Shown one piece after another: positions 38,921-45,947 of a stretch of DNA of 64,000 nucleotides. Source of the DNA: Acidobacteriota bacterium (GTDB lineage Bacteria > Acidobacteriota > UBA6911); the NCBI GenBank assembly GCA_016929335.1, contig JAFGIY010000179.1, positions 1-64,000 of the forward strand, read 5' to 3'. The notes under the pieces were generated by a model. The model was not told where the DNA came from. It saw nothing but the letters and a program-made list of their open reading frames with translations, and searched no databases. Made by a program: the position numbers and the translations under genes. Every line of letters begins with the position of its first letter. Position 1 is the stretch's first letter.

Positions 38921-40999
38921 TTAACCGAGCCTGCCTTTGGTTTGCATGACGTCAGCCGCTTTCTTTAAGCCCATGTCTTCAAGAGTTTTTCTTGTCGGCC
39001 AGCCGTTGGCCGTATTGAAACCCTCGAAGGCATAAAACCTGGTCTTCCATTCTTCAAATCTGGCACGATCCAGTTTCCGGCTTTCACCTTCCGAGTAGGA
39101 CCATTTTTTAGCTTTATGGTCGTACATCGGCATCAGATCTCCTTTAATGCTTTGCTCATAGATATAAGCCGGAAAGACCTCCATGTCCCGGTGCCTGCCC
39201 TGTATTGTCCAGATTGCCCGGTCCAGGGTGAAGATCTTCCGTCCAAGTTCCATGCCGTCGGCAAATGTTATGTTCCTGCCGGTAACGGCATTGAAGAATT
39301 TTGGTTCAGCCTCAGGCGTCGGACCCTTGTAGTCTGCGGTATTGTTGGTGAAACACATGGGCCATCGCCAGCCGCAAAAACCGTTGGATCCGATCCAGAA
39401 TTTCTCGTAGTGCTTGATCCAGGCGACCTGCTTGACTTTATGTTCGGAGTAAATCCCCGTTGGCCCGTCGCTGTAATCAAGCATGAAGGCGTCCCCCTGG
39501 TAGGGAATCATTGCATCTGCCGTAATCTGAGCAGCCTGCTCGGCTGTCAGGTACGGTTCTTTGTTGGCCATCTGGAATGCCACCGGAGTCCAGTGGAGAG
39601 GATAATTGGCGATGTTGTGCAGCATCAGATCCCTTTCGCCCAGCAGAGATCCAAATCCCCATTCCGCTTCCGTTCTGGGATCATAGTGATTCGCGGTGCC
39701 CCAATAAGCCAGATTCAATTTTCCGCTGGCGCTATCTTCCTCATACGTTCCCCATTTCTTCGCAGCTCTGGCGAGCCCCTCGGTCAAATCCTTGCCGATC
39801 CCCGTGCGTGTGCTGATCTGCCTCATAAACATGTCCAGGAATCCCATTGTGCCAAACTGATCCATCGGCAGATCGCATTCGATCTTCTTACCTTTGCCGA
39901 GAAGTCCGCGTTTGTAGAGATCCTGGACGTAGCCCTGCATAGGCATAAACTGCCAGTGACCCAGGCCATATTTCTGCATCAGGTCGTTGCCCTGGCGCGT
40001 AAGTTTCAGGCTTGCGCCCTCAAGCCTGACGGCAGCAGTACCGGCGCAGACCGATTCATTGCTGTCCGCGCTGGCCAGACGCTGGCGGCAGGCTCTGGGG
40101 CAGGAAGCGCAGGCTGCTGCGCGCGCAGGCACGAGGGGAAGAGCATTGGCGCCGAAATCCGGATTATTCGTGACATTTGCGCCGGCTGGGGAGCCGTTTA
40201 TCCAGAAGAACATCCCGCCTACCATGTCTTTCCTTCGCGGATCGTCCACGTCATATAGAAATTGACGGAACCATAACCGGGCTTCCATGAATGCCTTGGG
40301 ATCGGCAATAGGTACACTTCCCGTGCCGATGACGCTGATTGCCTTGAGATTTTTCGAGCCGAAGACTCCGCCAAAGCCGCCCAGCGCAGCTTGAGAGCCG
40401 GGACCATGCAGGAGGGCGCCCAGGCGACTCCTGTTCTCTCCGGCCAGTCCGCAGCAGACTACGGCTGGAATCTGCGTGGTATAGCTGTCGGCCAACTCTG
40501 CCCATTCGCCGTATTTCAGGCGGGGCATCACGCGCCGCGAGATTTCTTCCTGGGTATCCCATGTGTCCATTCCCCAGATTCCGTCGGCGCTTTCAATCTT
40601 GACCTGATCGTTGGCAATATTGATCCAGACCGGAGCATTTGCCGCTCCCTCGACCACAATGCCGTCCCAGCCGGCATATTTGAGTTGGGCCGTAAAGCGC
40701 CCGCCGAAATTGCTGTGTGCAAACCATTCGATGGGATATAGCATGGGTCCCAAACCCTGCACTTCGCATCGCCCCGAACCGGGCATGAAGGTGCCGGCAA
40801 ACGGATGGGCCATCATGATGATGAGGTTCCGGGGATCGAATGCTTCAAACGGAAGCTGATCGCCGACAAGGTCGAAGAATAGGGCAGAGCCCATTCCGTG
40901 ACCGCCGCCGTATTCTTCATACTTTTCTGTAGGAATAGTACTGGTCGATTTATTGGTCAGGTTAACCCTGAGGATTTTTCCCGTATATCCACCTTTCAT
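38921..40999 (-). CDS. Tungsten-type aldehyde:ferredoxin oxidoreductase family protein
   Basis: 692 residues. The start G-Y-T-G-K-I-L-R-V-N-L and Y-G-G-G-H-G-M-G-S-A-L are the family N-terminus. The central part binds bis-molybdopterin tungsten (C-C-G-L-A-G-E-N-R-S-R-L-G, then G-G-F-G-G-V-F-G-S-K-N-L-K-A). Cys297, Cys300, Cys304 (C-A-S-C-P-R-A-C) and probably Cys549 ligate the [4Fe-4S] cluster. It has no signal peptide, so it is cytoplasmic. AOR-family members oxidise aldehydes to acids with ferredoxin, or act in aromatic-ring reduction (BamB); this one cannot be assigned. AGGAGG precedes the ATG. It diverges from the predicted selenoprotein gene across 225 bp. Confidence 0.88.
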   Translation of the reverse strand: MKGGYTGKILRVNLTNKSTSTIPTEKYEEYGGGHGMGSALFFDLVGDQLPFEAFDPRNLIIMMAHPFAGTFMPGSGRCEVQGLGPMLYPIEWFAHSNFGGRFTAQLKYAGWDGIVVEGAANAPVWINIANDQVKIESADGIWGMDTWDTQEEISRRVMPRLKYGEWAELADSYTTQIPAVVCCGLAGENRSRLGALLHGPGSQAALGGFGGVFGSKNLKAISVIGTGSVPIADPKAFMEARLWFRQFLYDVDDPRRKDMVGGMFFWINGSPAGANVTNNPDFGANALPLVPARAAACASCPRACRQRLASADSNESVCAGTAAVRLEGASLKLTRQGNDLMQKYGLGHWQFMPMQGYVQDLYKRGLLGKGKKIECDLPMDQFGTMGFLDMFMRQISTRTGIGKDLTEGLARAAKKWGTYEEDSASGKLNLAYWGTANHYDPRTEAEWGFGSLLGERDLMLHNIANYPLHWTPVAFQMANKEPYLTAEQAAQITADAMIPYQGDAFMLDYSDGPTGIYSEHKVKQVAWIKHYEKFWIGSNGFCGWRWPMCFTNNTADYKGPTPEAEPKFFNAVTGRNITFADGMELGRKIFTLDRAIWTIQGRHRDMEVFPAYIYEQSIKGDLMPMYDHKAKKWSYSEGESRKLDRARFEEWKTRFYAFEGFNTANGWPTRKTLEDMGLKKAADVMQTKGRLG

Positions 41000-41166: not shown

Positions 41167-41224
41167 TGAGTGTCGGTTCACCAATCATGCTATAAACTTT
41201 AATTCATCTTGGGAGGAGGTAGAA

Positions 41225-42988
41225 ATGAAACCAAAGCCGCTATTGTCGAGTTGCCTTTTGGTGGCAGCTATCCTGATTCTCTCCGGTATTGCACCGGTGC
41301 AAGCCCAGCGTGATACTGCCGTTTCCAAGGACAAATTAGTCACTGTTCTGAATCCGGCAGTCACAGAGAAGCTTGCGGCGCGGGTACCACTGGCATCCCG
41401 GCTAAATTCTCTGGAAGGCAAAACCGTCTACCTGGTGGACCTGAACTACGAAGGAATCGGAGGAACACCGGTGATGGTGGAGATGCAGGCGTGGTTTGCC
41501 AGGAACATGCCCGGTGTAAAGGCTATTTATAAGCTTAAACGAGGCAATTATGTGGAGGATGACACGGCGCTATGGAAAGAAATAGCTGCCAACAAGGGGA
41601 ATGCGGCAATCCTCGGGGTCGCCGGCTGATGGGGCTGCCTCGCGGCCGTGAGCCGTTTCTCGGGAGCTTTGGAAAGACAGTATGGCATCCCCACCGCGTC
41701 GCTTGCGAATGAGAACATCGTATCCTTCGGGCTTGGCGACCATTTTAGATACAGCACCGGCATGCCCCTCCGTTTCGTCGGGATGCCGTATCCGTTTACA
41801 GGTATCAAAAAAGAAAACCTGCAAGCCTATCTCGAAGGCAAAGATAATGTCAGCGGCAAGCCGATCATGCAGGCGATCGCGGACTGTCTGACAAAACCTC
41901 TGACCGCTGAAGAAAAAAAGACGGATGTTCCACCGGAAGCAGTGCCCGAATCCAGATTTCTACCTCCGGATACGGAAGATAATCTGCAACGCCTGTTTAA
42001 GGACAAACATTGGACCGACTATACTCCGGTGCTGCTCCCGACGGAGGAGAGAGTGGCCGCGATGCTGAAAGGCACCAGCCACAAGCCGGATGAACTGGTT
42101 AAAAAAGAATCCGGCACCTTTGGAACTTCACGTCCCTTCACCGTGGAAAAGGTTGCCATCATCGCCGTCATGGCGGGCGCCAAACCCGATTATCTGCCCG
42201 TGATTCTGGCACTTGCCAGCCAGGTCCCGTATATGGATTCCACCACCTCCAATGCGACGTTTGTACTGGTGAACGGCCCCATCCGCAAAAAGATCGGCAT
42301 GAATTCGGGCATCGGCGCCTTAGGTCCGAATGCCGAGGCGAATTCGGTCATCGGGCGGGCGATGGTCCTGATGCATAAAATACTCCAGGGCTATCGGGAA
42401 GGGGTGAGCGGCTTTTCCTCCCTCAGTAATCCATTGCTTTACAGCTACATGCCCATAGCCGAAAACGAAGAGGCACTTCCGGAAGGATGGAAACCTGTCC
42501 ACGTACAGATGGGTCGTAAAGCTGAGGAAAGCGTCGTCACGCTGTTTTCGGGCTGGAACTTCGTGAATTGTTCCGGTTCGGTCGTGGAACACTATGCGCC
42601 GCAGCTTTTAATGCGTGATTTTACACGCGTGCTGGCGGCAATGGGATCTGCAACAATCATCATGGATCCGTCCGTCGCCTATCAGCTTAAAAACACGCAG
42701 GAATTCGAAACCAAAGAAGCCCTTGCGGAATGGCTCTCGAAGAACGCGGAAACCACCGCGGGAACCTATTGGGCAAATTCCATCGCTTCGGGCATGATGG
42801 GTCCACTTGGCAAACAGGGTCTCGAACCGTATGCAGGCTGGCAAAAAGCCTCTAGTGACACATTGATAAAACACCTCCCGAATCCGCGAAATATCAGGAC
42901 GATTGTGGCGGGAGGAGAGACGGCAAGCGTCTGGTTCATCACCGATTTCATGGCGGGACGGGGGGTATCAATCGATGCCTGGAGATAA
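41225..42988 (+). CDS. Exported UGSC-like selenoprotein (in-frame TGA read as Sec135)
   Basis: One frame runs from the ATG at 41225 (GGGAGGAGG upstream) to 42988 and is broken only by a TGA at 41627-41629. Read as selenocysteine, the product has 587 residues: signal peptide (about 1-28, cut after V-Q-A-Q), an N-terminal redox domain with L-G-V-A-G-U-W-G-C-L (Sec135, Cys138), and a C-terminal domain from about 265 with L-P-T-E-E-R-V-A-A-M-L, E-K-V-A-I-I-A-V-M-A-G and N-G-P-I-R-K-K-I-G-M-N-S-G. These match what I recall of the UGSC family of (seleno)proteins, where U/C-x-x-C sits at the same place. The alternative, two separate proteins, would need a GTG restart at 41648 without RBS. The reaction is unknown; a thiol/selenol redox role outside the cytoplasm is inferred. 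Confidence 0.8.
41627..41660 (+). promoter_or_regulatory. Candidate SECIS stem-loop after the TGA
   Basis: Directly after TGA, GGCTGC (41633-41638) can pair with GCGGCC (41642-41647) around CTC. Alternatively, GG (41633-41634) with CC (41653-41654) plus CTCG (41639-41642) with TGAG (41649-41652) frame the loop CGGCCG. Bacterial SECIS elements lie in this position. Which fold forms cannot be settled by eye. Confidence 0.5.
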
Positions 42989-43187: not shown

Positions 43188-43931
43188 ATGGCCGATTCCA
43201 AGAAATCCGGAAATAGGAAAGAAAAGGTTTTAAGACGTGAATTTCTCGCCAGTGGCGGCGCCGCAATCGCGGCTGGGGCACTGGGAGTATGCGCTTCCGA
43301 ATCCACGGCGACTGCATTAACTGAAGCAGTGACTCCCGCAGCACAAACATATGCGCCGTCTGCCGGATATATTGTCTATGACAGCAGGCTCTGTTTCGGA
43401 TGCCAAAGCTGCATGTTTGCCTGTTCAATGACTCACGAAGGGGAAGGAAATCCCTCGACTTCGAGAATCCAGATCATCCGCGATGCTCCGTCGTTCACCA
43501 AGTATCCCTATGACATCGTTATGTCGGTATGCCGGCAATGCGTTACGCCATTATGCGTACAGAACTGCCCGACAGGCGCCTGCCACGTGGATGCCGCCCA
43601 CGGCAATGTCAGGAGAATCGATGCGAAAAAGTGCATCGGATGCAAGCGCTGCATTCAGTCCTGTCCGCAAAGGCCCCACCGGACCGTCTGGAATCCTGTT
43701 GCCAGGAAATCCACCAAATGCGACTTATGCGTGGACGCACCCTTTTGGAGCAAGCAGGGAGGCCCTGACGGACATCAAGCCTGTGTGGAAGTCTGCCCGG
43801 CAAAGGCCCTTAAGCTTGTAAAAGAAGCTCCTTTGCAAACGGACGTTGCCGGATATGACGTTAATCTGGCGCCCCCGCCGACGCCCAAACCCAAGTTTTC
43901 CATGCCGGGGCAAGAAAGTAAGGCACCATGA
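43188..43931 (+). CDS. Tat-exported four-[4Fe-4S]-cluster electron-transfer protein
   Basis: 247 residues. The Tat motif L-R-R-E-F-L-A-S-G-G is followed by a hydrophobic stretch. The mature protein has the DmsB/HybA/PhsB-type Cys pattern: C-F-G-C-Q-S-C-M-F-A-C, C-R-Q-C-V-T-P-L-C-V-Q-N-C, C-I-G-C-K-R-C-I-Q-S-C, and C-D-L-C ... C-V-E-V-C-P, enough for four [4Fe-4S] clusters. Such proteins carry electrons between a periplasmic catalytic subunit and quinone or cytochromes. No molybdopterin subunit with a Tat signal is near. Candidates to partner it are the exported selenoprotein 199 bp upstream or the exported flavoprotein at 50619. RBS: AAGGAG. Confidence 0.85.
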   Translation: MADSKKSGNRKEKVLRREFLASGGAAIAAGALGVCASESTATALTEAVTPAAQTYAPSAGYIVYDSRLCFGCQSCMFACSMTHEGEGNPSTSRIQIIRDAPSFTKYPYDIVMSVCRQCVTPLCVQNCPTGACHVDAAHGNVRRIDAKKCIGCKRCIQSCPQRPHRTVWNPVARKSTKCDLCVDAPFWSKQGGPDGHQACVEVCPAKALKLVKEAPLQTDVAGYDVNLAPPPTPKPKFSMPGQESKAP

Positions 43932-44052: not shown

Positions 44053-45537
44053 TTATAGGTCGGGCGTGGCGAAATCCGTTGGCCCGATGATGCTGACATT
44101 CATTGCAAGAAGCGCATCCGCCATCGCCTTCAAATAATTGCCTTCGATCATAATATGATGGATGCCGGCGATATTCTGAAGAAAACGATCGGCGTTCTTG
44201 ATTCTGACCTCCAGATAATTCGAGCAGGTCATGCGCCTGAATCCGGTGTTGGGAGATGGCGAACTGTTGGAGAGCGCTTCCGTCTTCGTCCCTATCTGAA
44301 TTTTCCCGGGCCAAAGAACAAAGCTCTTCAAGTCCTTGCTGAATGCGCCCGTTATTACTTTCATACCCACGGGGAATTCAACTTCCGGCACGACGCCCTG
44401 TCCCATTCCATGATAATCCCTTAGCTTGTACGGCAGCGGAGAAGCGCCGGGCCCCATCATCTTTAAAGGAGCAACGCAGTGGCTGAGTACGGCATTGGAT
44501 TCCTGTAAATTCACTGAAATCACGTTGGAAAGAAAGGAGGGTTTCCGGCTGATCTCCTCCAAAAACATCGAAGATAGCATCCCGCAGACATCGGCTTCGC
44601 AGGCGGCCGTGAAGCCTTCATCGCGCAACCTCGCGAATGAAAGGCAGGGATAGGGCAGCCCAACGTTCCGATTGAAGAGCATGCCCAGGCAATCGATGGA
44701 GACTGCAGACAATCCCTCCTTTTCAATCATTGAGCGCAGAAGGACATAAAGCCTGCAGGCGTCCAGAATTGTCTTGTCCGAAGGTTCGACAACGGCGGTT
44801 GCCTCTTTTTTCCAACGCTCTGCTTCATTCCTTGCACCGGCTTCGTCGGTACGATCAAAAAGCTGTTTTAGCTCTTCCATCGACCGGTACTGTATCCGGA
44901 CGCCGGTTCGCTTATAAACGTAATCCTCATTGAGGTTATGTGCCGGAACGCTGGTCGAGTCGAACGGCCTGCCGAAGATGAGGGCGCGTTTGCCCTCCAG
45001 AATCCTTGGAGAAGCAAGAGTTTTCAGCATTTCAAGCGCCTGAGGTTGTGAAATGGCAAACAGGACATTGCCGCCGTTTGCACGCAATGCCGCCGCAAAA
45101 TTGGTATCGATCAGGATCAGGTCGGGATTTTGAGCGAGAAGCACCATTGGAACGCCCAAATTTCCCATGGAATCGGGAAGAACTCCGTAGCTGAATATGG
45201 AACGAGGAAGGCATATCAGGAGAATGTCCGCCTCCTTGCCCTGAATGGACTGAATTACTTCCTGTGGCTTTTGAAAATTGACCGTAATTGTATTCAGCGG
45301 AAGATCGATTCCCGGGATTGACCGTATCGATTCCATGAGTTTTTCGAACGCCGCCGGAGATTCGGTCAGACAGAGCAGCTTTTTTTTCGTCGCAGCCGTC
45401 CCGCCTTTCGATGAACCTCCGGCACTCTGACCGGGAAAGGCTTTTCCCGGAAAGGCCGCCGCCATGCTGGATATGGCCGTTGTCTTGATAAAATCGCGCC
45501 TTCCCACATGCATTCTCTTATGATTGATTTCAGGCAC
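44053..45537 (-). CDS. Tat-exported sugar-isomerase-like protein (FucI/AraA-related)
   Basis: About 494 residues from a GTG at 45537, which has GGAGG 6 bases upstream; the ORF itself extends 21 codons further. The Tat motif G-R-R-D-F-I-K-T-T lies near the N-terminus. The C-terminal half has C-L-S-F-A-R-L-R-D-E-G, C-E-A-D-V-C-G-M-L, S-H-C-V-A-P-L-K-M, Y-H-G-M-G-Q-G-V and F-S-K-D-L-K-S-F-V-L-W-P-G, the pattern of the fucose/arabinose isomerase C-terminal domains, including likely metal ligands (Glu, His). The N-terminal half fits the Rossmann-like part of these isomerases. Isomerases of this fold are normally cytoplasmic, so the Tat signal is odd. It could be a periplasmic sugar isomerase or a binding protein. 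Confidence 0.75.
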   Translation of the reverse strand: MPEINHKRMHVGRRDFIKTTAISSMAAAFPGKAFPGQSAGGSSKGGTAATKKKLLCLTESPAAFEKLMESIRSIPGIDLPLNTITVNFQKPQEVIQSIQGKEADILLICLPRSIFSYGVLPDSMGNLGVPMVLLAQNPDLILIDTNFAAALRANGGNVLFAISQPQALEMLKTLASPRILEGKRALIFGRPFDSTSVPAHNLNEDYVYKRTGVRIQYRSMEELKQLFDRTDEAGARNEAERWKKEATAVVEPSDKTILDACRLYVLLRSMIEKEGLSAVSIDCLGMLFNRNVGLPYPCLSFARLRDEGFTAACEADVCGMLSSMFLEEISRKPSFLSNVISVNLQESNAVLSHCVAPLKMMGPGASPLPYKLRDYHGMGQGVVPEVEFPVGMKVITGAFSKDLKSFVLWPGKIQIGTKTEALSNSSPSPNTGFRRMTCSNYLEVRIKNADRFLQNIAGIHHIMIEGNYLKAMADALLAMNVSIIGPTDFATPDL

Positions 45538-45947
45538 TGGACCCTCCGAAAAAAGTATAGGTCTGGAGATCAAAATCACGCTGTTCATATCATATAGCAA
45601 TTGTGCATGGATCGGTTGACAAAAACCCGATACAGTCAGGGCGCAATGCCATTTCCGAGGGCCGGCTGAAGCCGACAGCCGCCGGCTGAGATCGTCCTCA
45701 AGTCGGCTTTTGACAGGAATATCTCTTTTGATGCCGCCTGGAGCCGCCTATAATTGGGTATAAGGCCGATAAAGAATCGCCGGAAAACATTCACGTCTCC
45801 ATTCGGCGATGAATAATACATTACTGAAATGAGCCCGAATGTTTCTCATCTCAATCAGAAAAGAGCTTTAAGCGAAAAATAGGATACAGACATCTGGGAT
45901 CCCCCCTCCGCAGATCGGGCTGAGAAAATAAGGTTGGAGATTGCATC
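45538..45947. other. 410-bp intergenic stretch
   Basis: No gene recognised. A short GC-rich inverted word (GCCGGCTG/CAGCCGCCGGC, about 45661-45690) is the only structure I see. It holds the promoters of the divergent isomerase-like and TPR-protein genes. Confidence 0.5.

Follow-up and report, generated by a model that had tools for sequence, protein, structure and literature searches.

The window analysed here, a 64,000-nt stretch of an Acidobacteriota genome (contig JAFGIY010000179.1), holds two open reading frames (ORFs) that share one frame and are parted by a single TGA (41627-41629): 41225-41629 (134 aa, ATG start) and 41648-42988 (446 aa, GTG start). Comparison with their relatives leaves little room for doubt that the two ORFs form one gene in which the TGA encodes selenocysteine (Sec). 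Read through, the frame yields a product of 587 aa (...LGVAG-U-WGC-LAAVSRF) with a single internal U and is closed by TAA at 42986-42988. Overall, we favour the explanation, with a probability of roughly 0.65, that this product is an exported two-domain Sec enzyme working through a reductase cycle of the GrdB type. An earlier note on this DNA had described the two ORFs and proposed Sec; its coordinates proved exact, and its proposal is borne out by the residues found at position 135 in homologues, by a covarying hairpin and by the presence of the sel genes.

The Pfam UGSC model (PF24696) covers residues 41-201, on both sides of the TGA, at an E-value of 1.4e-10 (42.1 bits against a gathering score of 25); the N-terminal piece alone reached E 0.12, and the C-terminal piece alone gave no match. 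Because the domain straddles the TGA, the ORFs represent one gene and not two placed together by chance. A search of the same genome with the joined product returned 29 matches, many holding exactly one internal TGA; extraction and alignment left 27 family members, of which 17 carry TGA in the Sec column, always within U-x-x-C. Furthermore, the orthologues examined in seven same-genus genomes (72-79% identity) all have a single TGA in the same place and read ...GVAG-U-WGC.... Relatives were also found by scanning GTDB genomes, in records titled Acidobacteria, Deltaproteobacteria, Chloroflexi, Bacillota and other Proteobacteria. The homologue alignment that had been suggested as a check gave TGA at the residue-135 column in 87 relatives and Cys in 15, and at least four changes between Sec and Cys are forced on a FastTree phylogeny. 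As a separate observation, one Acidiferrales metagenome-assembled genome (MAG) carries three UGSC genes in tandem, of which two encode Cys and the third Sec (L088).

The Sec machinery is complete in the window's own genome, which encodes selA (568 bits), selB (385 bits), selD (376 bits) and a tRNA-Sec (selC) with anticodon TCA, the four genes that the earlier note had named for a check; selA was also found in all seven genus mates searched. The open frame of selD itself holds one in-frame TGA (L043), as expected of a Sec-type SelD. A candidate second tRNA-Sec on another contig (C218) was rejected, the match being a tRNA-Ser.

Sec genes of the family share a hairpin of the Sec insertion sequence (SECIS) type, with its loop centre about 20-25 nt past the TGA and typically a GGTC, CGTGA or GTN loop. 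The hairpin score peaked at exactly that register, with a mean of 14.2 in Sec genes compared to 4.8-10.5 at 30-240 nt on either side and 9.1 in Cys genes. In the GGTC register, represented by 38 Sec genes, 88.6% of cells were paired, a figure somewhat favoured by the derivation of the structure and the register groups from the tested sequences themselves, and five of the six pairs showed changes on both sides, as in GTGGC-GGTC-GCCAC, GCAGC-GGTC-GCTGC and CCGAC-GGTC-GTCGG. None of 500 shuffles equalled the covariation score of this set, nor did any slid version, slid versions being paired in at most 75% of cells; the same columns in 15 Cys genes were 42% paired and showed no covariation. The double changes and the comparison with Cys genes are stronger evidence for the hairpin than the paired percentage. 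Tested gene by gene, 19% of Sec genes reached p ≤0.05, a modest signal, and whole-stretch RNA energies differed weakly from synonymous shuffles (z −0.38 for Sec genes, −0.06 for Cys genes); what proved informative was the comparison of registers together with covariation. Synonymous codon conservation among the orthologues reaches the gene's second peak right after the TGA (about 0.74, against 0.52 overall). The highest value, exceeding that at the SECIS, lies at codons 405-414 (approximately 42437-42466).

Within the UGSC family (PF24696/NF041046), the window protein likewise carries U/C-x-x-C at the conserved site; it differs in its length of 587 aa, its predicted export, its extra C-terminal domain (C-domain) and its motif, which is U-W-G-C rather than the literal U-G-S-C. 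All 67 members of the family alignment (A2) matched PF24696 at E ≤0.5. The NCBIfam UGSC model NF041046 gave the window protein 21.5 bits against a cut-off of 125; the protein belongs to the Pfam family only and not to the NCBIfam equivalog, and the NCBI naming model would not name it because of this score.

Profile comparison further connected this N-terminal domain (N-domain) to GrdB. A profile of 30 UGSC N-domains aligned in hhalign with one of seven GrdB-family segments from genomes of the phylum at a probability of 94.9 (E 4.5e-8, score 52.8), with the Sec and Cys columns superposed; among the controls, 60 column shuffles scored at most 18.9 and reversal of the profile gave 17.7, whereas one Sec-containing GrdB used alone still scored 41.1. 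In an NCBIfam scan of the 67 members, PrdB, glycine-reductase B, GrdF and GrdH were among the few models weakly touched by several members besides UGSC (best E 0.009-0.09), and split UGSC proteins likewise touched the PrdB and GrdB models. The likeness to GrdB, PrdB, GrdH and GrdF (PF07355, TIGR04483) lies in the Sec segment, comprising a strand, U-x-x-C, a helix, GIP, P-R and P-x-x-G; moreover, those proteins are thioredoxin-linked in the literature. In contrast to GrdB and PrdB, the window protein is predicted to be exported, and its other domain is unrelated in sequence and matches no family; no pyruvoyl partner (GrdE/PrdA) was identified, the genome not having been searched for GrdE or PrdA. 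These comparisons make it very probable that the N-domain is a GrdB-type Sec domain, and the Sec segments of UGSC and GrdB/PrdB likely share common descent. Short GrdB-like proteins with V-P-V/L-U-P-x-C at a shared TGA were seen at five other loci (L134, L135, L138, L139 and L142), and a GrdB-like protein of the window's own genome (L125) has G-G-C-E-L-S instead.

Regarding the second half of the protein, searches of Pfam, NCBIfam and the PDB placed residues ~240-587 in no family. This C-domain is encoded by a separate gene adjoining a CxxC UGSC gene in Halalkalicoccus, Natrinema and Arthrobacter (in Arthrobacter in the order trxB-trxA-C-domain-UGSC), and in these split homologues the break comes after the complete UGSC domain rather than at U-x-x-C. 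Since the two parts occur as neighbouring separate genes, the fused form probably unites two subunits of a single enzyme. Separate N- and C-terminal homologues, which the earlier note had listed as grounds for refutation, therefore exist, but their N-terminal partner is a CxxC UGSC protein, which points to fusion and leaves Sec unrefuted. A thioredoxin reductase (TrxR)-like flavoprotein (CASCD/CATCD) lies within the flanks of 13 of 79 GTDB loci, often as the adjoining gene, a count that comes with no formal background rate; where encoded nearby, thioredoxin-type dithiols are likely the electron donors. Another large neighbour cluster, with 35 ORFs from 31 loci, was discarded; most of its ORFs run in the opposite direction to the UGSC genes. 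Phosphosulfolactate synthase (ComA-like) genes occur near the split pair in Natrinema and Arthrobacter (L147:1853-2320, L149:2701-3489), possibly a hint at the substrate. One record titled Klebsiella pneumoniae (L117) has a UGSC gene and TrxR neighbour resembling alphaproteobacterial loci and is probably a mislabelled MAG.

The cycle that we propose begins with decoding of the TGA as Sec135 by SelB and tRNA-Sec, aided by the hairpin about 22 nt downstream, a step well supported by the comparisons above. The PrdB selenolate is thought to attack a substrate carbon, giving a selenoether that is then resolved by a PrdB cysteine (PMC3091704). By analogy, the Sec135 selenolate would attack a small substrate held with the help of the C-domain, and Cys138, one turn later, would release the product, leaving a Se-S bond. 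In glycine reduction, electrons pass from NADPH through thioredoxin reductase to thioredoxin (PMC3091704); a dithiol donor would similarly re-reduce the Se-S bond, namely thioredoxin and thioredoxin reductase in relatives encoding them next to the gene and some periplasmic donor here. We infer all steps from the selenolate attack onward, and bond-cleaving chemistry is about an even prospect, if slightly short of that. Cleavage of the C-F bond of fluoroacetate has been attributed to GrdB-type proteins (farB/farE; PMC10838667), which suggests that a single genome can duplicate a GrdB-type Sec domain and redirect it to new C-X bonds; farB and farE differ in being canonical GrdB/GrdE relatives and not UGSC.

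Several results weigh against the explanation that we favour. PF07355 did not match the window protein at E ≤1 or any of the 67 relatives at E ≤0.5; because this direct match failed, membership of PF07355 is not claimed. A PDB fold search with the predicted model returned weak, generic matches, none below E 1e-3. The window hairpin taken alone did not differ significantly from synonymous shuffles (p 0.12), and an Rfam scan of the TGA region gave no match; the hairpin that the earlier note placed 3′ of the TGA stands at the level of the family, with its compensatory changes, and not for the window by itself. No thioredoxin or TrxR gene was seen beside the selenoprotein gene in the window, and the substrate and C-X bond chemistry rest on analogy with known enzymes.

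The strongest competing explanation, for which we would allow about one chance in four, accepts Sec insertion and takes the protein to be a thioredoxin-like thiol/disulfide or peroxide oxidoreductase. U-x-x-C is also a thioredoxin-type motif, UGSC was held likely to be thioredoxin-like in the 2008 Global Ocean Sampling (GOS) paper (PMC2398784), and PMC3091704 cites a reference whose title reports peroxidase activity of GrdB. The profile alignment with the Sec domain of GrdB speaks against it, as does the predicted model (predicted local distance difference test score 91, predicted template modelling score 0.89), in which Sec135 sits between strand 127-133 and helix 136-153 of an alternating alpha/beta domain (strands 67-72, 99-104, 127-133 and 157-162 alternate with helices), and whose 50 best PDB fold matches, all weak, include no thioredoxin. 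Moreover, a plain disulfide oxidoreductase would leave the large conserved C-domain unexplained. A Foldseek search with two models listed serine hydroxymethyltransferase and dehydroquinate synthase at template modelling scores of at most ~0.26 and root-mean-square deviations up to 19, which we regard as meaningless; a PDB sequence search gave nothing credible, and PADLOC gave no match.

That the locus instead holds two separate genes in one frame, for an exported 134-aa peptide and a 446-aa protein, is very improbable: a GTG start is available at 41648 and split genes do occur elsewhere, but those split past the whole UGSC domain, the domain straddles the TGA, Cys homologues read straight through, and, as the earlier note had remarked, no clear ribosome-binding site precedes 41648. 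Equally improbable is a TGA read as Trp or passed by leaky read-through without selenium, which would account for the open frame beyond it; relatives replace the residue with Cys and not Trp, the Sec machinery is present, and TGA is the ordinary stop of 10 of the 39 window ORFs of at least 200 aa, so that the code is not a reassigned one. Least probable of all is a sequencing error, recent nonsense mutation or pseudogene in a MAG with 6.3% estimated contamination, a possibility that the earlier note had itself raised; an error or recent mutation is excluded by the presence of the TGA, in otherwise open frames, in seven orthologues from the same genus and in many paralogues.

In addition to the window gene, its genome carries 16 more genes of the UGSC type whose Sec column holds a TGA (L009 to L019, L024 and L025), several in tandem and three on one contig (C251, in L010); three paralogues have the literal UGSC motif (in L019, L024 and L025). 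In 10 members, Sec is replaced by Ser, Gly, Asn, Leu, Ala or Met, and the Cys is missing as well from almost every one of them; they may have lost redox function. A signal peptide was detected by hydropathy scan in the window protein and most of its own-genome paralogues, which suggests that the selenoprotein is exported. Between 10 and 28 UGSC-family matches were counted in each of the seven same-genus genomes, whose estimated contamination is 2-5%; in one (G122; 98% complete, 3% contamination), 18 of 19 matches contain one TGA. Four genomes from other genera of the same family gave no match at the cut-off used. Because low-contamination genomes of the genus hold so many and the other genera none, the multiplicity is a trait of the genus and not a co-assembly artefact of the window's MAG. 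The many paralogues probably differ in substrate. We tentatively propose, as the less likely part of our interpretation, that the genus has radiated some 10-20 exported GrdB-type selenoenzymes per genome. Each of these would couple a UGSC selenolate domain to a substrate domain of unrecognised fold and act on a different small organic compound, which would make the set an extracytoplasmic counterpart of the Stickland reductases.

UGSC selenoproteins are already known, as is one UGSC fusion. According to the GOS report (PMC2398784), UGSC ranks with the most frequent selenoprotein families of aquatic metagenomes, and a UGSC/Unknown_1 fusion, a UGSC selenoprotein joined to a conserved unknown domain, occurs there (Fig. 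S1A); it may have the architecture found in the window. The passages of that report consulted do not describe genome-level amplification, a GrdB link or a thioredoxin operon, and the portions of the literature examined, including selenoprotein reviews, give no function for UGSC. The relationship to GrdB, the split and fused two-part architecture with thioredoxin partners, and the genus-wide amplification are new. Collectively, the GrdB/PrdB link, the split pair adjacent to trxA-trxB and the approximately 10-18 Sec copies per genome provide a testable chemistry for UGSC. In annotated plasmid records, the long UGSC form is named hypothetical and, in one case, split in two, and selenoproteome counts of such genomes are for this reason probably too low. 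With reported record totals of 57 and 63 selenoprotein genes (PMC13188914), 17 Sec genes from a single family represent a large share.

Table 1. Features of the selenoprotein locus, with Sec-less paralogues of the same genome
Feature	Position	Strand	Remarks
Complete selenoprotein gene	41225..42988	+	587 codons, TAA stop; TGA at 41627 read as Sec (almost certain)
Ribosome-binding site GGGAGGAGG	41211..41219	+	5 nt 5′ of ATG; strong; from sequence
Predicted Sec-type signal peptide MKPKPLLSSCLLVAAILILSGIAPVQA	41225..41305	+	sequence and hydropathy scan; putative cleavage site
UGSC domain (PF24696)	41345..41827	+	profile-related to the Sec domain of GrdB/PrdB
TGA, selenocysteine 135	41627..41629	+	sequence, orthologues, paralogues, relatives
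Cys138 of U-x-x-C	41636..41638	+	invariant; proposed resolving residue
SECIS-type hairpin of the window subgroup, GCGGC-CGTGA-GCCGT	41642..41656	+	loop centre 22 nt past first TGA base; covariation from a related register
C-terminal domain, ~residues 240-587	41942..42985	+	no Pfam/NCBIfam/PDB family; stand-alone gene beside UGSC in haloarchaea and Arthrobacter
Aldehyde ferredoxin oxidoreductase family (AFOR_N, AFOR_C; tungsten enzyme)	38921..40999	-	divergent neighbour; adjacency kept only in L047
Twin-arginine translocation (Tat)-signal 4Fe-4S protein	43188..43931	+	downstream neighbour; link to selenoprotein not conserved
Tat-signal-like protein	44053-45600	-	downstream of the Fe-S gene; no Pfam family
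Sec-less own-genome paralogues	L020, L021, L022, L023, L012:1743-3599 (minus), L024:10500-12212 (minus)

The neighbouring genes had been read in the earlier note as parts of one redox system with the selenoprotein, an idea that the comparison did not sustain: in the regions fetched around the same-genus orthologues, some of them cut short by contig ends, neither the aldehyde ferredoxin oxidoreductase (AFOR) gene nor the Tat Fe-S gene was found as a neighbour. A functional link to these genes is possible but finds no support here. At L047, outside the same-genus set, an AFOR gene of 77% identity stands directly downstream, without the Fe-S gene, and a distant AFOR relative (26%) is present at one paralogue locus of the window's own genome (L014).
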